Source: a virus
IMG/VR virus record: IMGVR_UViG_3300037116_000062
Location: 1-64,000 of that record
Length of the DNA: 64,000 bases
Direction: 5' to 3' (one strand)
This document shows positions 6,193 to 64,000 of the stretch, piece by piece; positions within the stretch are counted from its first letter, which is position 1; each line of letters opens with the position of its first letter. Below the pieces are notes generated by a model. That model was not told where the DNA came from, made no database searches, and saw only the letters and a list, made by a program, of their open reading frames with translations. The translations under genes were made by a program, and so were the position numbers.

Positions 6193-6324
6193 CTACATTC
6201 CTGCAGTCGCGCTCATCGCTTTCGGCTTTTCAGTCGTAGCGGTTATTGGTTTAGTCTCCCGTAACGTGGGCAACTCATCCGACACGCAAGCAGTCTCTAT
6301 TCCAAGCAATCGAATCAATTTCAC
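6193..6324 (-). CDS. Possible 43-aa protein
   Basis: A short frame from GTG (6324) to TAG (6193-6195) has ordinary amino-acid composition and codon use resembling the neighbours. Its start overlaps the stop of an upstream short frame as GTGA, the coupling style seen at 3810-3813. The ribosome-binding site is poorly spaced, so this is tentative. Nothing is recognised in it. Confidence 0.3.
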   Translation of the reverse strand: MKLIRLLGIETACVSDELPTLRETKPITATTEKPKAMSATAGM

Positions 6325-6339
6325 CCCCACTCTAGACTT

Positions 6340-6473
6340 CTAATAGAAGCCCACAGTGGAGGTGGCGGGTACGACCCGCGTCTTGCCAGTATAGCTAAAG
6401 CCCTCGACGTGTGTAATTTTAGGGGCGTCACGCCCACCGGGATGGACTCGATAGCCCTCTGGAGTTCAGCCAT
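6340..6473 (-). pseudogene. Short frame needing a -1 shift (remnant or recoded gene)
   Basis: An ATG at 6473 with GCGAGG six bases upstream opens MAELQRAIESIPVGVTPLK. After that the same frame fills with rare codons, whereas the -1 frame continues with codon use typical of this phage (ITHVEGFSYTGKTRVVPATS) to a TAG at 6340. The switch would occur at a run of four A. This could be a lost base in an old gene, a sequencing deletion or recoding; the unshifted frame ends at 6321. Confidence 0.3.
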
Positions 6474-8814: not shown

Positions 8815-9064
8815 AATCGCTGTCAACTCGAATCGAATCGCTGTCAATTCGCTGTCAAACGCTGACAGCGATTCATCTCTTGTGTTATCAACCGCTTAGG
8901 TCGAATCGCTGTCCGCTGTCATCTATATATACACATAGAAAAAAAAATTCGTCACGTATATATAGAGAAAAACTTGACAGCGATTCAAAACTTTCGTTGA
9001 TTCTAAAGGTACTTAACCTCAAACGAATCGCTGTCAAACGGTTGACAGCAATCTGACAGCGATT
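8815..9064. repeat. Iteron array with A/T-rich core, candidate replication origin
   Basis: The 11-mer AATCGCTGTCA or its complement occurs at 8815, 8836, 8847 (one mismatch), 8863, 8904 (one mismatch), 8975, 9026, 9043 (two mismatches) and 9054, in both orientations. In the middle (8921-8975) lies a strongly A/T-rich block with TATATATA and a run of nine A, fitting a DNA-unwinding element. The array is the only gap between the polymerase and primase-helicase genes. Some repeat arms include TTGACA and could also serve as -35 boxes. Confidence 0.65.
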
Positions 9065-11100
9065 CAACCCTCGTTCAGCCCGAACTTCTCTGTGCCTTTG
9101 TGGGTCTTGCCGACCACCACGATGACGCCCCCCATCAGCATAGCCTTCCACGAACGGTTGAACGTGTCCATGCCGCCGCTGCCCGCCCGATGAACGTTGC
9201 ACGCGTCCTGCAGTTGCTTCTTGGTCAGGAACTCGTGCTTGCGGAGTGACCGCCGCATGCTTTGTTCCATGCGCTCGACAAGATTGCCGTCGTCCACGGG
9301 GTACAGTTCCTCACGGAGGTAGATCTCATGTTCCGCCCAGGCGATGGCGCGGCTGACCTTCTCCTCGGTGATAGTCTGGTCGTCACTGAAAATCGTCCTC
9401 AGCAACAGGTCACGCTTGAAGTGAGACTCAAGGCGGGACGTCATGCCAGCGTCGACATAGTCGATGTCCATCTTGACTTTCTTCTTGGCGAGCGCCTTCT
9501 GGAACTCCTGCCGCATGGCGTTAGCCTCGTGCGTCTCGACAGGGATCCAACGTTCGCCCGATTGGGACATAGCCGTCGTCAACTCCCCCCAGCGGACTAG
9601 CATCTTGGCCGCGAGTGCATTGACTGCCGCCGTGTCCTGTTCGGCCCAATCGCCAATGTGAGTCACGCCATTGGTGTAGGCGAGAACGCAGCGGGACATG
9701 AACCCACTCCCCGCCGCACCCTTACCCGTGACCACTCGATCGAACGATGCTCTCGTGAAGCCGCCCGTGAACGAGATGGAGATGTCGCTGAACTCGCCGC
9801 CCTTGTTGGACAACGATCCCGCGCTACCTTCGCTGCGGTCATACAACTCGATCATCTTCGAGAGCAGTGTCGAGTTTTGTGCGGCCCCCTTCTCGAATAG
9901 CGTCTTCATCTCATCGAAGTAGACGACGACGTTGCTGTTGTCAAACCCCTCGCTGAGGTACTTCACCATGTGCTCGCCCGACGAGAACAGTCCCGCCTTC
10001 GGCAAGCCTACGCTGGTCTTGTTGATGTAATTGAGCAACGCGGACTCGCCTGTGCGCTTCCACGATTCGCCCTTGCCAGATTCGGGGTGGGCCGAGATCA
10101 GCATTGTCCAGTGCTTCATGTGCAGATCTTTTTGGTTCGGGAATCCGACCATACCATCTACGGACGCGCCGAGGATCGTCTTCAGTTGCGCACGAGCAAA
10201 CGCGGGCGGGATGAATGTCCCGTCGGTCACGAGGTGCGTCATGTCGCCAATCCAGTCGCCGTCAATCGCTATGTTGGGCGTCTCCACCAGACCTGTGTCG
10301 AGTTTCTTGCCCTCACCGAAGAACACGACGGGCGTTGACTCCGCCGCGTCGAACTTGTTGAATGCCGCGCTCGATATTTCCTTCAACTTGTCGTCGGGAT
10401 AGTTCTCGCCATCCTCGCAGTTGTTCGCCGCGAAGTTTTTCAGCGCCTCGTAAATCCCGTCTTCGTCCAAGCCCGCGTTGCGGAACTTCCCCGCCGCCGA
10501 CATGATGTGGGTACGGCGGTTGCCCAGCGAGATGAGATCCCCGCCGTCGGCCTTCGTCTTGAATACAGGCTTCTCCTTCTCAGCGGCCAACGCGACGAGC
10601 CCGGGCGGCAGAGGGATGATATCCACGTTCTTGTATATTGTATATTGCTTGCCTGAGGGGTGCCAGGATCCCGCCCCTACTACGTAACCACCAATCCCTT
10701 TGAAATCGCCCGAGGCTGTGCCGATCTGAAATTTCGTAGTGGGAACAGAGCCGCTGAAATATAAGTGCGCGCCAAATCCGTCGCGGCCAGACAGGACGGT
10801 GAACGTCTCAGGGATGCCGTGTTCTTTCTTCCACGCCTCGAATTGGGCGACGTCCTCAATACCCTTGTCTACGTCCAGCACGGTCAGGTTGGACATCCCG
10901 CAGGAGATTCCATAGTTGGCCTCTTCTCCAGCGGCCCACGGGGCGAGCGCAATCTTCGGATCACGGGTGCCTGAGTTGCAAGCATGCGGCGAGTACTTCG
11001 CGTAAGGATCCTTGCCATGGGGCATGCACGTGATGATGGCCAACCCGCGAGAGAGCGCGTCCTCAGCAGCGGCCTTCAGATCATTGACGATTTCGTTCAT
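9064..11100 (-). CDS. Bifunctional primase-helicase (prim-pol plus DUF3987-type ATPase)
   Basis: The 678-residue protein joins an N-terminal archaeo-eukaryotic-type prim-pol domain to a C-terminal ATPase. Prim-pol features are LDVDKG (75-80, catalytic DxD), the GRDGFGAHLYF segment with H112, and GYVVGAGSWHPSG (138-150). The ATPase has a Walker A-like HPESGKGES (338-346) and Walker B VVVYFDE (391-397), followed by helicase-like motifs as in DUF3987 phage proteins. It would synthesise primers and unwind DNA for the adjacent polymerase. The ATG at 11100 follows GGAGG. Confidence 0.88.
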   Translation of the reverse strand: MNEIVNDLKAAAEDALSRGLAIITCMPHGKDPYAKYSPHACNSGTRDPKIALAPWAAGEEANYGISCGMSNLTVLDVDKGIEDVAQFEAWKKEHGIPETFTVLSGRDGFGAHLYFSGSVPTTKFQIGTASGDFKGIGGYVVGAGSWHPSGKQYTIYKNVDIIPLPPGLVALAAEKEKPVFKTKADGGDLISLGNRRTHIMSAAGKFRNAGLDEDGIYEALKNFAANNCEDGENYPDDKLKEISSAAFNKFDAAESTPVVFFGEGKKLDTGLVETPNIAIDGDWIGDMTHLVTDGTFIPPAFARAQLKTILGASVDGMVGFPNQKDLHMKHWTMLISAHPESGKGESWKRTGESALLNYINKTSVGLPKAGLFSSGEHMVKYLSEGFDNSNVVVYFDEMKTLFEKGAAQNSTLLSKMIELYDRSEGSAGSLSNKGGEFSDISISFTGGFTRASFDRVVTGKGAAGSGFMSRCVLAYTNGVTHIGDWAEQDTAAVNALAAKMLVRWGELTTAMSQSGERWIPVETHEANAMRQEFQKALAKKKVKMDIDYVDAGMTSRLESHFKRDLLLRTIFSDDQTITEEKVSRAIAWAEHEIYLREELYPVDDGNLVERMEQSMRRSLRKHEFLTKKQLQDACNVHRAGSGGMDTFNRSWKAMLMGGVIVVVGKTHKGTEKFGLNEG

Positions 11101-25776: not shown

Positions 25777-26967
25777 ATGGCATCACCTAACCCAACCACA
25801 GGCCTGGGCGTAGCGACGAACGTAGTTCTCACGGGCACGGGCGTAGTTCGCACAGTCCCCAAAGTCGCGGGCACCCGCGGCGTAAGCGAGTTCTCAGTTT
25901 CGATTCCGATCGGCGGCACCGTGCAGATCACGGCCCTCCCGTTCGATGACGCGGGCAACGCAGTATCCGTCGGCAATGGCGGGCTGTTGGACGCCCATCT
26001 CGGCACCGCTGCGAATTTCGCCATCCTCGGCGCAAGCGCGGTCACAGGCAGCACTGGTGGCGGATCCACCATTAGCGGCGGAAACCTCGGTATCGCTCCG
26101 AACAACTCTTCGTCTGTCACGAACTTCCCGCCTTCCGTTCTGGTCGCCCCTGGCGTGGCTCATTACGCTGACGCGGTCGCGACACAGGCGCAGGTAGATT
26201 TGGCCGCGGCTATCGTCTACTTCCAAGGATTGACCCCGACCCTGTCGGGCCTTGGCAACCTTTCAGTCGGCGGCAACGGTTCGACCGCTGCAACTTACAC
26301 CGCTGGGAACTATTTCGGCGCGTCAAGTCTCGACATCCCTACCAGCATCACTCTGGACGCACAGGGCAATCCGAATGCAGTCTTCGTATTCGTGGCGGGC
26401 TCGACCATCACGCTGGAAAGCGGCGCATCGGTCATTCTCGCGAACGGAGCATTGGCCAGCAACGTCTATTGGGTGAACGGATCATCCTTCACTTCAGTCG
26501 ACGGCGGCGTCTCTGCTATGGTCGGAACGATCATGGCGCACACGTCTATCACGCTGGGTGGCGGAACCCTTTCGGGTCGCGCACTCGCGAACGTGGGCGC
26601 GGTTACCTTGAGCACGACCGAGGTTATCACGGTCCCTCCGACGGGCGTCACCCCCGGAGTTGGATACACAAACGCAGTGACCTTCGCCAGCGCACCGATC
26701 AGTGTCCCCGCGTGGTACAGGCCGAGTGCACAGGGCAAGAATTATCCTGGCGCATACATGGCTCCCGCAGTCGTGGACGACAACGACGCGAACCCGTGGA
26801 CGGTTCGCGGGCGCAGCGCAGGCCAGACGGTTATTGACTTCCAGATCCCGACCTTCGGGAATACGGAAGGTCAGAGTTTGGTGGACGTGAACGCAGTCAT
26901 GGACGAAACGTTCATCGACACTATTTACGCTTCTCTGCTCGTGACGGTCACAGGCGGCACAAGCTAA
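25777..26967 (+). CDS. Virion-type protein with an inserted DUF3494 (ice-binding family) domain
   Basis: The 396-residue protein contains a complete DUF3494-type domain at about 73-287: GTAANFAILGASAVTG, ISGGNLGIAP, TNFPPS, AQVDLAAAIVYF, NAVFVFVAGSTITLESGA, VYWVNGSSF, GTIMAHTSITL and GRALANVGAVTLS follow the family in order. The flanks (about 20-70 and 298-396) look like one Ig/BIG2-type domain, similar to the decoration protein at 35876, so the DUF3494 unit seems inserted into its loop. DUF3494 proteins bind ice or act as adhesins; no signal peptide is present, consistent with a particle component. Confidence 0.78.
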   Translation: MASPNPTTGLGVATNVVLTGTGVVRTVPKVAGTRGVSEFSVSIPIGGTVQITALPFDDAGNAVSVGNGGLLDAHLGTAANFAILGASAVTGSTGGGSTISGGNLGIAPNNSSSVTNFPPSVLVAPGVAHYADAVATQAQVDLAAAIVYFQGLTPTLSGLGNLSVGGNGSTAATYTAGNYFGASSLDIPTSITLDAQGNPNAVFVFVAGSTITLESGASVILANGALASNVYWVNGSSFTSVDGGVSAMVGTIMAHTSITLGGGTLSGRALANVGAVTLSTTEVITVPPTGVTPGVGYTNAVTFASAPISVPAWYRPSAQGKNYPGAYMAPAVVDDNDANPWTVRGRSAGQTVIDFQIPTFGNTEGQSLVDVNAVMDETFIDTIYASLLVTVTGGTS

Positions 26968-26979
26968 ACGGAGGCAACC

Positions 26980-27495
26980 GTGTACAAGTCCGTCTTTACT
27001 AAGATCATCGACGGCTTGTATTTGGGTGACAAGGAAGGCTTACCTGAAGCAGAGCGGCGGGGATATTCAGTTCTCGCCGCCTGCAAAGATGGCTCACCCG
27101 ATTGTCACCGCGCGGTCCTCGGCTACACAGAACTGGGCGCGCCCAAGGGCAAGAACTATTACTTCGTACAGCGTGGCGACCACATGGCGCTGAACCTTAT
27201 TGACGCGGAGACTGCAGACTTCATCCCCGATGAAGCGATTGACGCAGGATTGGACTTTCTTAAACAAGAAAGAGATGCAGGGAAGAAAGTTTTCGTCCAC
27301 TGCATCGCGGGCCACTCCCGCTCAGTAGGTATAATGATGCTTTTTCTCAGAGCCATTGGGGAACTGCCTGAAGGATTTCATAGGGCGTTGCACAAGTTCA
27401 CCGTTCTCTATCCAGAAGCGGATATGGGAAAAGGAATGTACCAACACGTCCGCCGTCGTTGGGCGGATATGAAAGACAAGTTTCTGTCGGCTTAA
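26980..27495 (+). CDS. Dual-specificity/tyrosine phosphatase
   Basis: The 171-residue protein has the phosphatase P-loop VHCIAGHSRS (106-115; C108 and R114) and the N-terminal IIDGLYLGDKE segment typical of DSP-like enzymes. It would remove phosphate from proteins, or possibly from RNA or sugar phosphates. The start is GTG at 26980, after GGAGGCAACC. Placement among particle-type genes is unusual for a regulatory enzyme. Confidence 0.82.
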   Translation: MYKSVFTKIIDGLYLGDKEGLPEAERRGYSVLAACKDGSPDCHRAVLGYTELGAPKGKNYYFVQRGDHMALNLIDAETADFIPDEAIDAGLDFLKQERDAGKKVFVHCIAGHSRSVGIMMLFLRAIGELPEGFHRALHKFTVLYPEADMGKGMYQHVRRRWADMKDKFLSA

Positions 27496-27553
27496 TTACC
27501 CGATGGAGGGCGAGGCTAGTCCCTCGCCCAACTCTAGACTAGGAGAGATTATG
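27493..27553 (+). promoter_or_regulatory. Candidate RBS-sequestering pseudoknot, HNH gene at 27551
   Basis: After TAATTACCCGA (27493-27503) an 8-bp stem GGGCGAGG/CCTCGCCC (27508-27515, 27522-27529) exposes loop CTAGTC. That loop is complementary to GACTAG (27537-27542), which overlaps the Shine-Dalgarno AGGAGAG. The same layout with different bases occurs at 36442-36511, so base pairing appears conserved. Confidence 0.6.
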
Positions 27554-36418: not shown

Positions 36419-36441
36419 GCACCAATTCGACATCTTCGGAC

Positions 36442-36511
36442 TAATTACCCGAAGCCAGAGCGACCAGCACCTAGAATGCTGGTCGCTCGCTCTTTTCTAG
36501 GAGAGAATATG
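36442..36511 (+). promoter_or_regulatory. Terminator/pseudoknot element before HNH gene at 36509
   Basis: TAATTACCCGA (36442-36452) precedes a perfect 12-bp stem (36458-36469 with 36477-36488). Its 7-nt loop CCTAGAA is fully complementary to TTCTAGG (36495-36501), which overlaps the Shine-Dalgarno AGGAGAG. The stem is also followed by CTCTTTTCT, so it can act as a terminator of the capsid/decoration transcript. Confidence 0.65.
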
Positions 36512-43326: not shown

Positions 43327-43836
43327 ATGAGTCAGATTGCAGCGAATGGCGGCCAGCCGCAGGTGGGGGATGTATTCGGGAAATGGACTCTCCTGTCTAA
43401 AACGGGACGAGGCTCCTACGTTTGTCGCTGCGAGTGTGGTATAGAAAAGCCTATTGGCTCTACTGAATTACTTCGTGGGGCTAGAAAGAAAGGGTGTCGT
43501 CGTTGTCAGATTGGTTTTTCAAAAGAGACTGCTCGTAGGAACGAGCTATATGGCAGCTATGTCCTGAATGCAAAAAAGAGGAAGTTGGATTTTGCGCTCT
43601 CTCGTCAAGAAGCAGAATTGATGTTTGTATCCACATGCCACTATTGTGGGAAACTCCCCTCTCCCAACAATGGGATTGACCGAATGGATAACTCTATAGG
43701 GTATTTTCCAACGAACTGTGTGGCATGCTGTGGTTTGTGTAATCGCATAAAGAATGTCTTGGGTTATGAGGAGTTTTTTGCTCACCTAAAGTCGATTCTG
43801 GAATTCCGGGGGTATCATGTCACAAATCGCGGCTAA
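43327..43836 (+). CDS. HNH endonuclease carrying the copied start of the downstream tail gene
   Basis: The 169-residue protein has CRCECG and CRRCQ cysteines and an HNH core CHYCGKLPSPNNGIDRMDNS, then NCVACCGLCNRIKNVLGYEEF. Its first 12 residues, MSQIAANGGQPQ, are identical to those of the tail protein starting at 43817, and the nuclease proper begins after them. It therefore appears to have captured the tail gene's original translation start, while the tail gene has a second, recoded start inside the nuclease 3' end (20-nt overlap). Confidence 0.85.
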   Translation: MSQIAANGGQPQVGDVFGKWTLLSKTGRGSYVCRCECGIEKPIGSTELLRGARKKGCRRCQIGFSKETARRNELYGSYVLNAKKRKLDFALSRQEAELMFVSTCHYCGKLPSPNNGIDRMDNSIGYFPTNCVACCGLCNRIKNVLGYEEFFAHLKSILEFRGYHVTNRG

Positions 43837-46800
43837 TGGTGGGCAACCTCAGAAGTCCCCTCGCTACGCGCCAATCTACTCGGGAAGGTTCTTTAACGGT
43901 CTGAACACAAATCGGTCCCCACTGCGTGCTGCGAGTGCGAATCACATTTACGAGAAGTTCTACAGCGACTCCTCAGGTGACGCACTCATCGCGGGTCTGA
44001 ATCTGGAAGTGTCGAACAGGCTGACCCTTATCCGTCGCCCAGGCAATCCGATTTACGATAACACGCACACGTACAACGACCCGTGGCACTTTGACGAGTT
44101 CCGCGTCAACAAGTTGCAGGATGACGTCCTCGGCTCCGTGCAAGAGCAAATCTTCACGCTCGTTGACGAGAGCGCGGGAAGCCAATACGGCGCGGGAACC
44201 GTTTACTCACTGACCCCGACTTTCGAACGCGGCGGCGACGCGACTGATGGCGGACTCAGTTTTGTGAAGGGCGCAGGCGCAGGCCAGACGTACTTCCAAG
44301 CAGTAGGCAACGAACTCTATTTTGGCGACGGCGTCGAGAACAAGAAATGGCTGCAGTCGATAATCAACCGCAATGCCGTAGGTGCGAATGGTTTCTACCT
44401 CCAAGGACCGCCCAACAATCCGTCGGGCGCGTACCCGTTTGGGACGTACCTCCTCGATTGGAATACGGGCAATCCCCAAGAGTTCATCGGAATCACGATC
44501 GGCACGGTGACGAATGTCGCCATGTCAGCGAACGTGCTCACCCTCACAGTAGACCTCGCAACCCCCTCAGCGGGGCTAACCGTTCCGAACGCTGATGTAA
44601 ACGATTACGTCGTGAACACGCCCTTCCAGTTGTGGGGCTTCACAGACGCGGACAACTTGTGGTTGAACGGGATTACGATTTTCCTTCAAGCGGCGTACAC
44701 CCACACCAACTCCTCGTCCACGACTTTCGTCGCGCAGGTGAATCACGCGACGAACTACACCCAGGCAGTCACATCCCCGAATTTGACTTACATCATCCAA
44801 TCGGGAACCGCGCCCGTAGTCGCACAACTCAGTACGACCACTATACCCACTTACAACACGCAAGTTCCGACTGCCGCGAATCTGTACCAGAGCGGACTGA
44901 CCCTAGACGGCAACACGGTCTGGGCAAATCGCGGAACTCCGTCCACGGGTGGATACAACCAGAATCCGAACGTAGAAAACTGGGGAATCCAACCCCCGAC
45001 AGGGAAACCGACATACTCCGTTTCGGGGTCTGAGCAGTCGTGGCAGAAGAACACCTATTACTCCCCTGCGTCCGTCTATGTTGGCCCAGGTGGGTATCTC
45101 TGGCAAATTTCCAAGGCGGGCACCACGGGAACGGGAACAGTGTTCCCGAATCCTCCCCCCGCCGTCGGCATAGTGCCTGCTACGTCCCAACAGGCTCTAA
45201 TCACGAATGTCTATATCTCAGGGAATGTCGCCTACTTCACGACGGCCACTCAATCTCTCGCGACGGGTAACATCGTGAATATTAGTGACCTCTCCGTCGC
45301 AACCTTCTTGAACGGAGAACAGCTTACTGTTCTTTCGGGGGCGACTCCTACATCTTTCTCGGCGACCGTATCCACTGTGTCTTACCCGACCACGCCCGAC
45401 TCAGGTCTTGTGACTCTGCCAGGGTATGTGTTACAGGACGGAACCGCGCAATGGACGGCGATCCAAACTCCTGCATCTCTCATCTGGGAACCGAATACGC
45501 ATTACAACATCGGGTCTTTCATCATAGCGACGACGTCCGCTGGACCGCAACTATTCCAACTCAGTGTGAATACCACATCCCTTGCGTTGAGCACCGCGAT
45601 TACCGCGGGGTGGATTGCCCAATCCAGCAGTTGGCAAGGCGCAGTTAGTCTATGGAATACAAACGACCCGAACGCTACCACACACGGTGGTGGTGGGCCT
45701 GTATTCTCTGCATTCCCAGGCGGCCAAACTGGACCCGTCCCCTCCCTTGATTGGAATGGCGTAGGCCCCGGCGGAACGATTATCGTTAACACGCTGAATG
45801 GCGCGGGCGCAATCATCCCGCCTCAAGTCCCTCTCCCGGGCAGCCCCGCTAATGGGCCATTCTGGGCAGCCGCGACAGGTTCTATGTTCATCCCAGCCCC
45901 GGGATCTTACGTCTTCACGATCACAACCGAAGACGCAGGGTTCTTCTCCTTCCAGACGACAGCTAATGCGTCTGGCGGAATCGCCTCTGTGTCGGGGAAC
46001 ACTTTCATTCCCCAAACAGGTGGGGTCGCACGACAGGTCACGGTAGTAGATGGGTACGGTAGCCTAACAGGAGGCACGTCCCTTTGTGGCACGGACAACA
46101 CTGGCGGGACAGGCACCACAGGGATGTCCTGCACATGGACATTCACGAAGGCGGGGAACTACAACTACGAAGTGGACTACGGACACAGGACGGGGACTCC
46201 CCGTTACATGACGCTCAAGTATGGCACGGCGCTCGAAATCCCGCCCTACCCGAGCGAGTCAGGAGCAACCGCGCCCCTATGGACACCTTTCACCACCACA
46301 GGGATGCAGTATGTGAACGGTCAGATTGTATGGCCCGCGACCGCGACCGACGGACAGTACACGTGGAACAACCTTGGCCCGATGACGGATTACGTCTATG
46401 TGGCCAACACTCCATACACGCTGCCCGCGAGCACGATTATCGATTCAAACGGCAACCAAGAAGGCGTGGCCGAAACGGGCATTTCGGATACGACTCAACC
46501 AACATGGCCCACGGCAATCAACACGGTTACCCCCGACACGGGATATCCGACCCTTCAGTGGCTTAATGAAGGCCCACTGGCCTCGTCAACCACTCCTGGC
46601 ACGATCGCAGCGACGTCCGTGCAGGGCTACCTTTATTGGATTGCCCTTGTGAACACGCTGGACAATTCTGTGTCAAACCTCGGCCCTGTGTCGTTGTCGA
46701 CGGGTTCGTTCATCAATGGGGTGGTATCCTTCAGCCCAGGTTCAGGATTGCCCACGGTAAATGGGGTGGTCACTGTTGACCCACAAGACGACTATGTCGC

Positions 46801-48082
46801 CATCTTCAGAACTGCGGATGGGTTTACGACGCCTCTGCTCATCCCAGGGTTTGTCACCTCGCCGTACACGGTTCCGCTGACTCAGTACATCCGAAATGGT
46901 TTCGTGGACAACTTCCCCGACACTGAATTGAATGACCTCGTGCAGGGTGCTGAAGCAGGCGAGAACACTCCCCCAATTGTGGGAGCAATCAATCTCACAT
47001 ATGCACTCAACCGCATCTGGTACAGCCTTGGAAACACCGTCTATTACACGACGGGCCCGCAAGCCCCAAGTGGGAACGGAATTGATGGCGCGTCCCCGAC
47101 TAACCTCTCTCCTTGTCCCTCACAGGTCAAGAGATTGGTGCCGACGGCGATTGGTATGCTGGTGTTCACCATCAGCGATATCTATATCATCCCAGGAAAC
47201 GGTACGACTCAAAGCCCCATCCAACCCGCGCTCCCGTATCTCACGGGCGTCGGCTTGGGAAATTACAACGGACTCGACATCAACGGTGGCATCATGGGCT
47301 TCTTCACGACTGACAAACAGTTCGTGATATTCGACCCGAGTGCCGGATTGAGTTACGTGGGTTATAACATCGGCGACCAACTCCGCCTCAACAACGGCAC
47401 GGCTGGTCAGTCATGGAACCCATCCACCGCATATGTCGCGTGGTATATCAACGGCGAAGACCAAGCGTGGTTCCTTGGTGACGCTGTCAATGGCTGGTAC
47501 AAACTCATCGCAACGCCTGCCCCCGAAAGCGGGAACGGCGTAGTCGCATGGAGCCCCTTCGGGACTATCGCAGGCGGATCCGTGAGTGCGATCAAGGCAA
47601 CGGAAGTCAGCCCTGGAGTCCACAGGCTGCTTGTTGGACAAACAAGTGCAACGGGTAGGATCCTGAATCGTGACCTGTCCGCAACCACGGACGCGGGCTC
47701 GACAGGAATCAACGGAACCACTTACCCCGCGTACGGAGTAATCGGATCCATCGTGTTGGCGCAACCTGGGCAAATCGCCAAGGTCGCGTTCATTACGACG
47801 GTCTGTGTTCGCACAGGAAGCCCGCCAATCCTTGGCGTTCTTCTGGACGAGGCTCTACCGTATTACACGGGCAGCTTCGACGTCCTGAAACGCTGGACGA
47901 ACGATCCCCCGAACCTGCCACAAGGTAAATCATTCTACAGGCAGCGATTTTACCTTTGTGAAGACGAGGAGACTTCGGCGTACTGCATGGACATGCAGAT
48001 CATGGTGCAGTTTCCAACCGAAGCCGCGCTCAACGAACTGCAGACGCTCACCGTGTTCGGTGCCTACGAAGTTGAGATGTAA
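43817..48082 (+). CDS. Large tail protein, probable nozzle (tail tubular B-like)
   Basis: The 1421-residue protein begins MSQIAANGGQPQ then PRYAPIYSGRFFNGLNTNRS, the N-terminal pattern of podovirus nozzle-type proteins, and is dominated by beta strands with regular Gly/Asn turns, as in a beta-propeller tube protein. The central part (about 250-900) is an extended Ser/Thr/Pro-rich insertion, larger than typical nozzle proteins (about 800 residues). No enzyme motif is seen. Its 12 N-terminal codons are a synonymous copy of those at 43327. Confidence 0.65.
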   Translation: MSQIAANGGQPQKSPRYAPIYSGRFFNGLNTNRSPLRAASANHIYEKFYSDSSGDALIAGLNLEVSNRLTLIRRPGNPIYDNTHTYNDPWHFDEFRVNKLQDDVLGSVQEQIFTLVDESAGSQYGAGTVYSLTPTFERGGDATDGGLSFVKGAGAGQTYFQAVGNELYFGDGVENKKWLQSIINRNAVGANGFYLQGPPNNPSGAYPFGTYLLDWNTGNPQEFIGITIGTVTNVAMSANVLTLTVDLATPSAGLTVPNADVNDYVVNTPFQLWGFTDADNLWLNGITIFLQAAYTHTNSSSTTFVAQVNHATNYTQAVTSPNLTYIIQSGTAPVVAQLSTTTIPTYNTQVPTAANLYQSGLTLDGNTVWANRGTPSTGGYNQNPNVENWGIQPPTGKPTYSVSGSEQSWQKNTYYSPASVYVGPGGYLWQISKAGTTGTGTVFPNPPPAVGIVPATSQQALITNVYISGNVAYFTTATQSLATGNIVNISDLSVATFLNGEQLTVLSGATPTSFSATVSTVSYPTTPDSGLVTLPGYVLQDGTAQWTAIQTPASLIWEPNTHYNIGSFIIATTSAGPQLFQLSVNTTSLALSTAITAGWIAQSSSWQGAVSLWNTNDPNATTHGGGGPVFSAFPGGQTGPVPSLDWNGVGPGGTIIVNTLNGAGAIIPPQVPLPGSPANGPFWAAATGSMFIPAPGSYVFTITTEDAGFFSFQTTANASGGIASVSGNTFIPQTGGVARQVTVVDGYGSLTGGTSLCGTDNTGGTGTTGMSCTWTFTKAGNYNYEVDYGHRTGTPRYMTLKYGTALEIPPYPSESGATAPLWTPFTTTGMQYVNGQIVWPATATDGQYTWNNLGPMTDYVYVANTPYTLPASTIIDSNGNQEGVAETGISDTTQPTWPTAINTVTPDTGYPTLQWLNEGPLASSTTPGTIAATSVQGYLYWIALVNTLDNSVSNLGPVSLSTGSFINGVVSFSPGSGLPTVNGVVTVDPQDDYVAIFRTADGFTTPLLIPGFVTSPYTVPLTQYIRNGFVDNFPDTELNDLVQGAEAGENTPPIVGAINLTYALNRIWYSLGNTVYYTTGPQAPSGNGIDGASPTNLSPCPSQVKRLVPTAIGMLVFTISDIYIIPGNGTTQSPIQPALPYLTGVGLGNYNGLDINGGIMGFFTTDKQFVIFDPSAGLSYVGYNIGDQLRLNNGTAGQSWNPSTAYVAWYINGEDQAWFLGDAVNGWYKLIATPAPESGNGVVAWSPFGTIAGGSVSAIKATEVSPGVHRLLVGQTSATGRILNRDLSATTDAGSTGINGTTYPAYGVIGSIVLAQPGQIAKVAFITTVCVRTGSPPILGVLLDEALPYYTGSFDVLKRWTNDPPNLPQGKSFYRQRFYLCEDEETSAYCMDMQIMVQFPTEAALNELQTLTVFGAYEVEM

Positions 48083-48111: not shown

Positions 48112-48140
48112 TTGACAATCTTCTCCTATTGCTGTAAACT
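48112..48140 (+). promoter_or_regulatory. Dedicated promoter of the HNH gene at 48159
   Basis: TTGACA (48112-48117), 17 nt and TAAACT (48135-48140) predict a start near 48147. The spacer contains the left arm of a 13-bp inverted repeat whose right arm covers the ribosome-binding site. Confidence 0.72.
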
Positions 48141-48158
48141 TAAGTAATAGGAGAAGAT
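48118..48158 (+). promoter_or_regulatory. RBS-sequestering hairpin overlapping the promoter
   Basis: ATCTTCTCCTATT (48118-48130) and AATAGGAGAAGAT (48146-48158) are perfectly complementary over 13 bp with a 15-nt loop, directly abutting the ATG at 48159. A transcript reading through from upstream would fold and hide AGGAG; a transcript starting at about 48147 lacks the left arm and would be translated. Confidence 0.75.
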
Positions 48159-48752
48159 ATGGAGAACAATCATCCACGATTCCGCCTTCAAGGGCGGGAG
48201 CAAGAGGTTATCGCCGCCTATCAAGGCGGCAGTTCAACTCCAACGATAGGGAAACTCTTTGGGGTAAGCCACGCTTCCATTCTGCAGGTGTTGAGGAAAT
48301 TCAACGTCCCTCGACGCACGCGAAGTGAAGCCAACATACAAACGCATTGCAAGAGGGGACACCCAATGGTGGAGGGCAACCTCTACTACATGAAGGGCGG
48401 GGTACGGAGTTGTTTGACTTGTCGCAAGGCAAATGGCAGACGTAGTCGATTTGGACTACGGCCTGAGGATATCGAAAGACGACTTCAGCAGCAGGAAGGG
48501 AAATGTGCTGTTTGTAGAAAGACTTTGAAAATCCCCCAAGCAGACCACGATCATTCCTGTTGTCCTGCGAAAACTAAAACTTGTGGAAAGTGTGTGCGAG
48601 ATTTGTTGTGCAGGAACTGCAACCTCGCTGTCGGGAACGTGAAGGACGATATCTCAATAGCAGAATCCCTCGTCGCTTACCTGAAGAAATGGAAAACCCC
48701 CAATGTCCACCCTAGCAGAACGACTGAAAACGCAATCGCTGCCGGGGTTTGA
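48159..48752 (+). CDS. HTH-HNH endonuclease, endonuclease VII-like (3)
   Basis: The 197-residue protein starts with a helix-turn-helix (about 16-50: EVIAAYQGGSSTPTIGKLFG, then VSHASILQVLRKF), a CKRG...CLTCRK linker and an endonuclease VII core CAVC, QADHDHSCCPAKTKTCGKCV, LLCRNCNLAVG. It has its own promoter and translation switch. Its last 50 nt overlap the next gene. Confidence 0.88.
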   Translation: MENNHPRFRLQGREQEVIAAYQGGSSTPTIGKLFGVSHASILQVLRKFNVPRRTRSEANIQTHCKRGHPMVEGNLYYMKGGVRSCLTCRKANGRRSRFGLRPEDIERRLQQQEGKCAVCRKTLKIPQADHDHSCCPAKTKTCGKCVRDLLCRNCNLAVGNVKDDISIAESLVAYLKKWKTPNVHPSRTTENAIAAGV

Positions 48753-49404
48753 GGCAGCCGAAAAATCAGTGAGCGCGCCCCCGGTATTACCCCCCGGGGT
48801 CGCTCCTCCTGCGAACAAATATATTCGCTGTCCGTTGCCGCCGTTCGCGGTGAACATCGACACGCTAAGGCAGTACAACGAGGGCGGCGCGGTGCCAACA
48901 CGCCGCGTCATCCCACTCCCTATTTCCGTGCAAGCGGGGTCGGGAACAACCATCAACAACTCTTTCGTTCAAAGTAGCAGTGGTGGAAGCAGCGGAGGAA
49001 GCAGCAGTGGAACAACACTGAAGGCGGTCACCGCGTTCGTGAACGTCTCTCCCTTGTCACCAATTGGCGTGTTCGCTACGACAGTTCAGATGGCAAAGTC
49101 GTTTCAACTCCTGCAGGTGACTTTCAGCCAGCCCTTGGAAATTCGGCTGTATGGAACCTCGCTCGCGCAGGTGAGCGATATGGCCCGGCTCACAGACAAC
49201 GCTCCGCCGTTCGAAATCAATCACGTGATCACAGATGTCGTACTTGACACGGCTCCATACCAGTGGAGTTGGCAGAATAGGATTTGCGCAAACGCGGACA
49301 ACCCCCAGACTACGACGATCTACATCACCATCGTCAACCCCTCAGGGAGTGTGGGAACGTCATCCGCGAGTGTGGCTATAACATATCTTCCTTTAGAGGT
49401 GTGA
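48703..49404 (+). CDS. Virion protein of unknown type
   Basis: The 233-residue protein has a low-complexity Ser/Gly hinge (residues 87-102) between an N-terminal Pro-rich part and a C-terminal beta domain (AVTAFVNVSPLSPIGVFATT, QLLQVTFSQPLEIRLYG). Its design suits a tail or fibre attachment protein. The start lies within the HNH gene. Confidence 0.52.
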   Translation: MSTLAERLKTQSLPGFEAAEKSVSAPPVLPPGVAPPANKYIRCPLPPFAVNIDTLRQYNEGGAVPTRRVIPLPISVQAGSGTTINNSFVQSSSGGSSGGSSSGTTLKAVTAFVNVSPLSPIGVFATTVQMAKSFQLLQVTFSQPLEIRLYGTSLAQVSDMARLTDNAPPFEINHVITDVVLDTAPYQWSWQNRICANADNPQTTTIYITIVNPSGSVGTSSASVAITYLPLEV

Positions 49405-52551: not shown

Positions 52552-52856
52552 TGCTTCCCGACCAGATTAACGTTCCCGTCGCAGAGGCTTCTGCGTCACA
52601 GGATGGATACGTCCACCGTGTGCTGGTCGCATTTGACGTCTTCGTGAACGTCCTCTTTAGGGGGCGGATGGACGAGACGATTTCGGCCCGATCCTATAGG
52701 GCAGCTCTCCAGGGCAAACTGTGGGGGAAAGTCATGAACGCCTTCCTCAACCTGTTCCAAGCGAACCACGGGGCGCTCGCCGCCGCGGGAGATTTGGAGC
52801 GCGCGGATAGCGTAGCAGGCACTGAACAAAAGACACTTGACACGCCGTCCAAATAG
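52551..52856 (+). CDS. Conserved small phage protein with ETISAR motif
   Basis: The 101-residue helical protein contains VFVNVLFRGRMDETISARSY, a pattern (a(l)n.l..G...eTlSaR.w) I know from widespread phage proteins near lysis or tail genes whose function is unknown. Its start overlaps the previous stop by one base. Confidence 0.5.
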   Translation: MLPDQINVPVAEASASQDGYVHRVLVAFDVFVNVLFRGRMDETISARSYRAALQGKLWGKVMNAFLNLFQANHGALAAAGDLERADSVAGTEQKTLDTPSK

Positions 52857-52865
52857 GTGTAATAT
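52837..52865 (+). promoter_or_regulatory. Sigma-70 promoter for 52884 onward
   Basis: TTGACA (52837-52842), 17 nt and TAATAT (52860-52865) are close to consensus, immediately upstream of the gene at 52884. It lies in the 3' end of the previous gene and probably drives the internal-virion-protein genes. Confidence 0.75.
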
Positions 52866-52883
52866 CAAGATAGGAGGAAATCT

Positions 52884-53114
52884 ATGTCCGAACCAACCAC
52901 ACCCCGAGTATCCGTCCCATTAACCGCTGAACAGGCCACCGCACTGCTGAAAGCGCACCACGAGTATCTGGCAGCGAAGGTCGCCCGATTGGAAGCGAGC
53001 GAAGTGGAACTGAAGGCGGCGAACGCCGTGAATCAGGTCATCCAATCAATCCCGCGTCCCGACGCAGGAAACTGGGAAGTAAACCTGAAGGATGGAACGA
53101 TCGACCCCAAGTAG
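52884..53114 (+). CDS. Small helical protein
   Basis: The 76-residue protein has one long amphipathic helix (about 15-55, ATALLKAHHEYLAAKVARLE). ATG 52884 follows AGGAGGAAATCT. Role unknown. Confidence 0.5.
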   Translation: MSEPTTPRVSVPLTAEQATALLKAHHEYLAAKVARLEASEVELKAANAVNQVIQSIPRPDAGNWEVNLKDGTIDPK

Positions 53115-60544: not shown

Positions 60545-60574
60545 TTGACAACAACCCCCGTCCTCTGTTACTAT
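60545..60574 (+). promoter_or_regulatory. Extended -10 sigma-70 promoter for 60593
   Basis: TTGACA (60545-60550), 18 nt and TACTAT (60569-60574) preceded by TGT give an extended -10 promoter starting about 10 nt before the Shine-Dalgarno of the next gene. Confidence 0.75.
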
Positions 60575-60592
60575 TCAAATAGGGAGAAAACT

Positions 60593-61069
60593 ATGAGCGA
60601 GCCAACCGGGCCGCCCGCTGATTTCGGCGGAGCGATCCTACCTAACCCGACGAACATCCAGCCTGAGGACGACAGCGTCCACACGCCTAAGGCTCAGGTT
60701 CATCCTGGCGGGGCTGTCATGGACGTGGGGAACGCGCCCCTCGGCGATATGAAGGGGGACACAGACAACGGGGTGAAAGACCCTGCGTCATTCCCCGCAC
60801 AGAAGCCTGATCAGGACTTCCGCAAGCTGTCTCATGAGCGGCCAACCGACAACGCAACGATGGCGGCGATGCGCGGCGCAGGGGTCGATATGACCCTTGA
60901 CAACTATCTGACGTGGGCGTACATGGGCGACGCGCCCGATCTGGACAAGTTGGACGGCGAGGACATCGCGATGATGCCCAAAGAGTTCCAGAAGGAAGTA
61001 CGAGACACGCTCGCGAAGGAAGCCGCGGCTAAGGCGAAGCCGAAGGCAGGCGAGAAGTCTACGAAATAG
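60593..61069 (+). CDS. Protein of unknown function
   Basis: The 158-residue protein has a Pro-rich N-terminal half resembling the Pro-rich starts of the neighbouring ejection proteins (NPTNIQPEDDSVHTPKAQVH) and a helical Lys-rich end. It is monocistronic or heads a small unit under its own promoter. No family is recognised. Confidence 0.52.
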   Translation: MSEPTGPPADFGGAILPNPTNIQPEDDSVHTPKAQVHPGGAVMDVGNAPLGDMKGDTDNGVKDPASFPAQKPDQDFRKLSHERPTDNATMAAMRGAGVDMTLDNYLTWAYMGDAPDLDKLDGEDIAMMPKEFQKEVRDTLAKEAAAKAKPKAGEKSTK

Positions 61070-62973: not shown

Positions 62974-63002
62974 TTGACAACCGACAGAGGAACTGCTAAG
63001 AT
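62974..63002 (+). promoter_or_regulatory. Extended -10 sigma-70 promoter for 63020
   Basis: TTGACA (62974-62979), 17 nt and TAAGAT (62997-63002) preceded by TGC lie directly upstream of the last gene. Confidence 0.75.
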
Positions 63003-63019
63003 TAAGAAATAGGAGGACT

Positions 63020-64000
63020 ATGGCCAAAACTGATGGAACCATGCGCGACAAGATTGTCGCCGCGTTCACCAAGAACCAGGGCAACATCGCCGCCGTATCC
63101 CGTGAAGTGGGATGCAGCCGTAGCTCCGTGCGCCGCAACATCGCCAAGGTCGGCATGGGCAAGAAGCCCCTCGCTGGCGGCAAGCGCAAAGCCAAGATCC
63201 AGAAGAACACCGTTCCGAACACTGGCGTGAAACGGTATGTCATCACCTCCGCCCAGAACAACACACATATCCATCCCGAGTTTTGGGCGAACGTCCAGGC
63301 CCTCGCGAAGCACTACTCTGCGGAGATCCTCATCGGAACGTACTCCTATAACCAGAACAATTACGGCAAGCTCGCGGTCAAGAAGGGCACGAAGAAATCA
63401 TACCAGACGGAACTCTGGTTCGACCCCGCGCTCATGCATTACATCGCAGACGGCGACAGGAAGATCGAACTGGCCCCAGGGCTCACGTGGATCGGCACCA
63501 TGAATATCCTGCCGACCGAAGACAACCCGATCTCGGGGTTGGAGACGTACGGCGGTTCGTCCAGTGTGATCTTCCCACACGCTAAAGTGGAGATGCGCAG
63601 CATCGCAACCCCGCCCGACATGCCTGTCAAAATGATCTACACGACGGGTAGCGTCACGCTCATGAATTACCTGCAGAAGAAACTGGGCATCAAAGCCGAG
63701 CACCATCATCGCTACTCCTGCCTCGTCGTTGAAGTCAACGCGAAGGGAGAGTGGTGGGTTCGCCAAGTGAGCGCGCGCAAGAACGGGCTGAACATCCAAG
63801 ACTTGAATGTCATTGTAGACAGTGGCAAGGTCATCTCCACGGACGCGCCAATCGCGGCAATCGCGTGGGGCGACCTGCACGGGACTATCGCAGACCTGAC
63901 GGTTGTTGAGTCATCGCAGAAGATGCTGGATACGTTGCGCCCCAGGGTGCAGTACCTCCATGATGTCATGGAAGGCATCTCCATGAACCCGCACATGCGG
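63020..64000 (+). CDS. HTH protein with GDLHG motif (truncated at the right edge)
   Basis: The open frame runs 327 codons from ATG 63020 (AGGAGGACT upstream) through the end of the window. An N-terminal helix-turn-helix is seen (about 9-43: DKIVAAFTKNQGNIAAVSRE, then VGCSRSSVRRNI). Near residue 286 AIAWGDLHGTIAD resembles the GDxHG motif of metallophosphoesterases. It could be a DNA-binding phosphoesterase. The C-terminus is outside the window. Confidence 0.55.
   Translation, partial: MAKTDGTMRDKIVAAFTKNQGNIAAVSREVGCSRSSVRRNIAKVGMGKKPLAGGKRKAKIQKNTVPNTGVKRYVITSAQNNTHIHPEFWANVQALAKHYSAEILIGTYSYNQNNYGKLAVKKGTKKSYQTELWFDPALMHYIADGDRKIELAPGLTWIGTMNILPTEDNPISGLETYGGSSSVIFPHAKVEMRSIATPPDMPVKMIYTTGSVTLMNYLQKKLGIKAEHHHRYSCLVVEVNAKGEWWVRQVSARKNGLNIQDLNVIVDSGKVISTDAPIAAIAWGDLHGTIADLTVVESSQKMLDTLRPRVQYLHDVMEGISMNPHMR

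Follow-up and report, generated by a model that had tools for sequence, protein, structure and literature searches.

A Shine-Dalgarno-burying hairpin with a nested sigma-70-type promoter as a probable transcript-origin lock on a phage HNH endonuclease gene

How might an endonuclease gene lodged between two tail genes of a phage set its own expression when the surrounding operon is transcribed across it? The question is raised by a short leader in the window, the 64,000-nucleotide stretch of viral DNA analyzed here (IMG/VR record IMGVR_UViG_3300037116_000062, positions 1 to 64,000), in which an inverted repeat, a promoter and a Shine-Dalgarno sequence (SD) are packed together directly before the start codon. 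The initial annotation had proposed that transcripts from this promoter can be translated and that transcripts entering from the tail operon cannot.

Structure of the leader and energetics of SD opening

The SD-burying repeat with its nested promoter at 48112-48161 was confirmed as a real sequence feature, and its parts are listed in Table 1. Read directly from the sequence, the 13-nt arms ATCTTCTCCTATT (48118-48130) and AATAGGAGAAGAT (48146-48158) are perfect complements, and the repeat stops one base before the endonuclease ATG. Its left arm lies in the 17-nt spacer between TTGACA and TAAACT, hexamers that match the consensus at 10 of 12 positions. In the plus-strand RNA a G-U, a C-G and a U-A pair extend the stem inward, so that 16 pairs close a loop of 9 nt in a hairpin of -22.3 kcal/mol (z -8.2 versus dinucleotide shuffles, with 0 of 200 shuffles as good), compared with a weaker -16.2 kcal/mol on the opposite strand. 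No other perfect stem of at least 13 bp with a loop of 3 to 30 nt exists in the window, and dinucleotide-shuffled windows contained 0.03 such stems on average. A terminator was ruled out by the absence of a T run after the stem on both strands, and no Rfam match was obtained at 48112-48161.

The cost of opening AGGAG was computed as 17.0 kcal/mol in a read-through leader beginning after the tail stop and 0.5 kcal/mol in an RNA beginning at 48147. The high value was matched by none of 500 upstream-only shuffles, and among 111 control genes of the phage group the maximum was 7.5 and the median 2.0 kcal/mol. The HNH genes of the same group had a median of 2.35 versus 2.0 kcal/mol (p 0.11), and strong SD hiding as a general HNH trait of the group was thus unsupported. 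The stem starts 35 nt past the stop of the upstream tail gene at 48082, and a ribosome terminating there should therefore not melt it. The anatomy given in the initial annotation (a perfect 13-bp repeat ending at the ATG, a buried AGGAG and a left arm within the promoter spacer) was borne out, as was, in silico, the claim that long and short transcripts differ in SD access.

Table 1. Coordinates of the leader elements, neighboring genes and related leaders in the window
Feature	Position	Strand	Basis or remark
-35 TTGACA	48112-48117	+	Sequence reading, promoter scoring, module pattern
Left stem arm, within promoter spacer (13 perfect bp and 3 RNA pairs)	48118-48133	+	RNA folding
-10 TAAACT, in hairpin loop	48135-48140	+	Sequence reading, scoring, module pattern
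Right stem arm, holding the SD	48143-48158	+	RNA folding
SD AGGAG	48149-48153	+	Sequence reading, opening costs
Predicted transcript start (A), 6-7 nt past -10	48146-48147	+	Promoter geometry
Endonuclease_7-type HNH gene, 197 aa	48159-48752	+	PF02945 profile, Endo VII structures, AlphaFold
Upstream tail gene, 1421 aa	43817-48082	+	ORF; homologs in viral contigs and Tunturi_3
Next tail gene	48703-49404	+	ORF; adjoins upstream tail gene in HNH-less relatives
Module copy bearing the putative lock, TTGACA-17-TAAACT, ATG 48159	48112	+	Pattern search
Sibling module without lock, TTGACA-17-TAATAT, ATG 52884	52837-52886	+	SD opening 2.7 kcal/mol
Sibling module without lock, TTGACA-18-TACTAT, ATG 60593	60545-60595	+	SD opening 2.2 kcal/mol
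Sibling module without lock, TTGACA-17-TAAGAT, ATG 63020	62974-63022	+	SD opening 1.9 kcal/mol
Pseudoknot-type leader, HNH gene at 27551	27482-27553		Covariance model R1
Pseudoknot-type leader, HNH gene at 36510	36431-36511		Covariance model R1

Recurrence of the promoter as a module

The region shows no surplus of promoter-like sites by consensus scoring, which alone is therefore insufficient to prove a promoter. The good sigma-70-like promoter of the initial annotation gained support from a pattern search, in which TTGACN17-19TANNNT N3-8 ATAGG was found in four copies in the window, all on the plus strand, against 0.01 expected. Every copy places the ATG 17-18 nt beyond the -10 with the SD in between, and such promoter-SD-ATG units occurred in 0 of 15 shuffled windows. 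This fourfold recurrence with constant ATG spacing points to a reusable promoter-RBS module belonging to the phage, with a predicted leader of about 12 nt. A search for a phage-type RNA polymerase (PF00940), run without a positive control, gave no match in records G000 and G001. Two genes behind the sibling modules at 52837, 60545 and 62974 start with MSEPT.

The three siblings, computed in read-through RNA, have open SDs, with opening costs of 1.9-2.7 kcal/mol. Only in the endonuclease copy is the spacer complementary to the SD, which is the strongest evidence from within one genome to suggest an added lock.

Endonuclease gene and its optional position in the tail operon

The 197-aa product matched the PF02945 Endonuclease_7 profile with 51.2 bits (cut-off 23.6, E 1.2e-13), PHROG endonuclease VII families and the T4 Endo VII structure chains 1e7d/2qnf, and its DHDH and paired CxxC motifs are intact. 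Residues 14-47 form a predicted helix-turn-helix (HTH) with AlphaFold pLDDT 82-88, compared with below 60 for the rest of the protein, and Pfam HTH matches to this N-terminal domain were weak. Endo VII-type genes are numerous: the 70-kb record has 5, and its relative G001 has 14.

The 3' end of the HNH gene overlaps the start of the next tail gene by 50 nt. Homologs of the upstream tail gene were found in viral contigs at 51-68%, and the only isolate carrying one is the Tunturiibacter phage Tunturi_3, a podovirus of Acidobacteriota, in agreement with the podovirus-like nature attributed to the genome earlier. The HNH gene is absent from the junction in L086, L087, L088, L094, L097, L099, L105 and Tunturi_3; the tail genes stand only a few bases apart in all of these except L087, in which a 96-nt spacer takes its place. 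L100 and L101 carry another, different Endo VII gene in the same tail junction, and L085 carries an ortholog of the endonuclease with 51% amino acid identity. Given this presence and absence among relatives, the insert would comprise the promoter, the lock and the gene, and the switch would move with the gene. The product is probably a mobile homing-type HNH endonuclease, as annotated initially, a label that draws on the Endonuclease_7/HNH domain and on presence or absence at the junction.

The L087 spacer (9135-9230) holds a perfect TATAAT and a GC-rich inverted repeat. At the other end of the upstream tail gene, an HNH gene at 43327-43836 shares its 12 starting residues, MSQIAANGGQPQ, with the tail gene (43817-43852), the DNA of the two starts differing mostly at synonymous positions; the HNH start at 43327 looks like a captured gene start.

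The L085 ortholog and the pairing between spacer and SD

Orthologous genes numbered two (window and L085) in the collections searched; viral contigs yielded L085 only, genome contigs none and phage isolates none by DNA. Upstream blocks conserved in the alignment of the pair are CTTGAC, ACT at the -10, and GGAGAAGATATGGAGAA. The L085 promoter reads TTGACT-17-GATACT, and its stem UUUCUUGUCGC/GCGAUGGGAGA joins spacer to SD by 11 pairs, seven Watson-Crick and four G-U. Opening of the L085 SD costs 6.9 kcal/mol in the long leader versus 0.07 in the short one, and it was hidden equally well in 10 of 500 upstream shuffles and in 153 of 1000 spacer-only shuffles. Retention of the promoter and of a weaker SD-hiding stem in L085 is thus modestly supported.

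The last of these values, together with the small number of orthologs, is what would be expected if the promoter were real and the hairpin an accident of little effect, a pyrimidine-rich spacer pairing by chance with a purine-rich SD. We consider such an accident improbable, as the window stem lies far beyond chance in both the shuffled windows and the upstream shuffles, and the three sibling promoters all lack such a hairpin.

A second alternative is that the dyad acts as a DNA operator, to which the HTH of the endonuclease itself or another repressor binds, blocking the promoter. The dyad centre lies on or beside the -10 in the window, in L085 and at an HNH gene of L231 (G007:74483), the endonuclease has its predicted N-terminal HTH, and autorepression of I-TevI at its own late promoter is established (PMC2988022). 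Against an operator, the right arm of L085 is nearly unchanged and its left arm is not the mirror image, so that RNA pairing has outlasted DNA symmetry; the window stem extension includes a G-U pair, and inclusion of the whole SD in the repeat is not required of an operator. This reading is therefore unlikely as the sole role of the repeat; both might operate at once, the HTH domain occupying the DNA and the lock acting on the RNA.

In the survey of gene starts, a promoter spanned by a stem preceded 5 of 78 HNH-like starts versus 9 of 1228 other starts. The promoter of the gene at G007:74483 reads TTGACA-17-TACACT, and its -10 is flanked by the arms of an 8-bp repeat, CTGCACAG/CTGTGCAG; this case was not counted as a lock, the SD being downstream of the stem, and the repeat is a possible operator.

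Proposed mechanism

The reading that we favor, and hold to be probable, is a lock set by transcript origin, by which read-through RNA of the tail operon is silent and RNA of the nested promoter is translated. The anatomy, the energetics, the recurrence of the module and the layout of the ortholog were observed in the sequences; its start site, effect on translation, purpose and timing are inferred. A polymerase reading through from the tail gene would produce a leader with both arms, the 16-pair hairpin would cover AGGAG and all the bases between it and the AUG, and the endonuclease would go untranslated from the abundant structural mRNA. Transcription started at TTGACA-N17-TAAACT would begin within the right arm, near 48146-48147, and the predicted leader of 12-13 nt, missing the left arm, would expose a free SD. 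Endonuclease dosage would then be set by its own promoter only and insulated from the invaded operon. The shortness of this leader was considered as a point against the lock. If the sigma-70 promoter were constitutive or early, the order of events would be the reverse of that in T4, and late firing is also conceivable; insulation of dosage from the operon would follow irrespective of timing.

Alternatively, the stem could be an RNase processing site, cutting of the long transcript freeing the SD and so activating the read-through RNA. A long and nearly perfect stem fits such a site, but 16 pairs are short for RNase III substrates as generally described, and processing would make the nested promoter superfluous, though this is the best-supported part of the element. 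RNase E-type processing is documented near T4 segB and segG and Aeh1 mobE (PMC2988022). On balance we regard processing as very improbable here, and the transcript-origin lock is retained as the preferred explanation.

A pseudoknot leader before other HNH genes

Two further HNH genes of the window are preceded by a leader of another type (Table 1), consisting of a hairpin with an NYTAATTAC loop, a GC-rich hairpin of 8-12 pairs, and 6-7 loop bases that perfectly complement bases overlapping the 5' part of the SD. In an alignment of eight sequences, 16 of 22 pairs, the pseudoknot included, vary on both sides, with a covariation of 0.607 versus 0.179 in shuffled alignments (0 of 500 shuffles). 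A covariance model, R1, detected the leader in 10 of 16 phage-group records at E up to 0.01, some of these hits being weak, and does not detect 48112-48161. Copies are located at G001:20295, G001:32525, G002:34909, G002:36452, G003:83915, G005:3527, G005:12562 and G007:61828, and additionally in L272, L364, L366, L370 and L384-L386. A structure-only scan of 2.17 Mb also recovered pseudoknot leaders, and they occur in other viral contigs, mostly just 5' of HNH genes, and 5' of HNH genes in unrelated phages, among them Persistence, Phrank15 and Anekin, which are cultured phages of Arthrobacter. The genes behind them encode Endo VII and other HNH types. The leader had no match in Rfam and no description in the literature searched, and it is probably a new SD-hiding RNA family.

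Like the element at 48112, the pseudoknot leader would keep read-through RNA of Endo VII-type HNH genes from exposing the SD; unlike that element, it is built from two hairpins and a pseudoknot, and no nested promoter was recognized in it. At G001:16407-16468 (L269 1501-1562) a pseudoknot-type leader lacking the SD partner is followed by an apparent HNH gene 3' end, apparently an internally deleted HNH cassette.

Other features of the genome

Between the polymerase and primase-like genes, at 8835-9065, lies a cluster of inverted repeats whose arms are GAATCGCTGTCA, a possible origin or operator. On the minus strand, 6237-6412 matched the Rfam family tmRNA_permuted at 49.2 bits against a gathering threshold of 47, without confirmation by ARAGORN. 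The structural region of this soil phage encodes, at 25777-26967, a protein with an ice-binding-like domain (PF11999, E 6.4e-35).

Significance and comparison with known systems

A wider proposition, to which we give even chances, is that beyond T4-like phages mobile HNH genes bear purpose-built SD locks of at least two unrelated designs in a single genome, namely the sigma-70-promoter hairpin, possibly with inverted timing in which late structural read-through is silenced, and the pseudoknot leader, which is new, widespread and common to different HNH families. Taken together, the two would make control at the RNA level look like regular equipment of phage HNH cassettes. The element at 48112 suggests a way for a selfish gene to fix its own dosage within a highly active operon, and the three lock-free sibling promoters of the same genome offer a ready internal control.

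In T4 I-TevI, I-TevII, I-TevIII and segB and in Aeh1 mobE, leader hairpins bury the SD on RNA initiated upstream, and the RNA of the nested promoter lacks the 5' arm (PMC2988022). The I-TevI logic invoked by the initial annotation is an apt comparison for the buried endonuclease SD and the promoter whose RNA would skip the 5' arm, and the timing may differ, since the long RNA in the window would come from the structural tail operon, whereas in T4 the read-through RNA belongs to the early or middle period and the nested promoter fires late. Aeh1 mobE is likewise a free-standing HNH gene. The genes of this group use T4 late or middle promoters, in contrast to the sigma-70-type -35/-10 found here, and in contrast to the T4 leaders the promoter spacer itself forms the left arm, in a podovirus-like genome of Acidobacteriota. 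The T4 late promoter TATAAATA is absent from 48112-48158, and the putative lock is therefore described as working like the T4 class and is not filed as a member of it. In Aeromonas phage 25, seg43(25) also has a stable homing-gene hairpin near the SD, but this lies just upstream and leaves the SD free, whereas the window SD is inside the stem (PMC2988022).

A switch of the kind proposed here operates in the leaders of T4 gene 49 (recombination endonuclease VII), e and soc (PMC3014915). Gene 49 shares with the window gene both the type of switch proposed and, as the founding Endonuclease VII, the domain of the 197-aa protein. It encodes a resolvase of the phage and is driven by a T4 late promoter, whereas the window gene is an optional, probably mobile HNH gene with an additional predicted HTH domain and a sigma-70-type promoter. 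As a positive control, the survey picked up Endo VII genes whose TATAAAT-type promoter lies in SD-hiding stems (L147, L157, L158 and L144), the stems around this promoter being ACTCCAAAAAGTT/AACTTTTTGGAGT in L158 and CAATAGTTTG/CAAACTATTG in L147; judged by their promoter and clamp-like neighbors, they resemble gene 49 leaders of the T4 type. Locking by transcript origin is already known from the endonuclease genes of T4, and what is new here is its apparent construction on a sigma-70-type promoter, which suggests that a T4-style lock arose once more, in a phage lineage far from T4 and on a common -35/-10 promoter.
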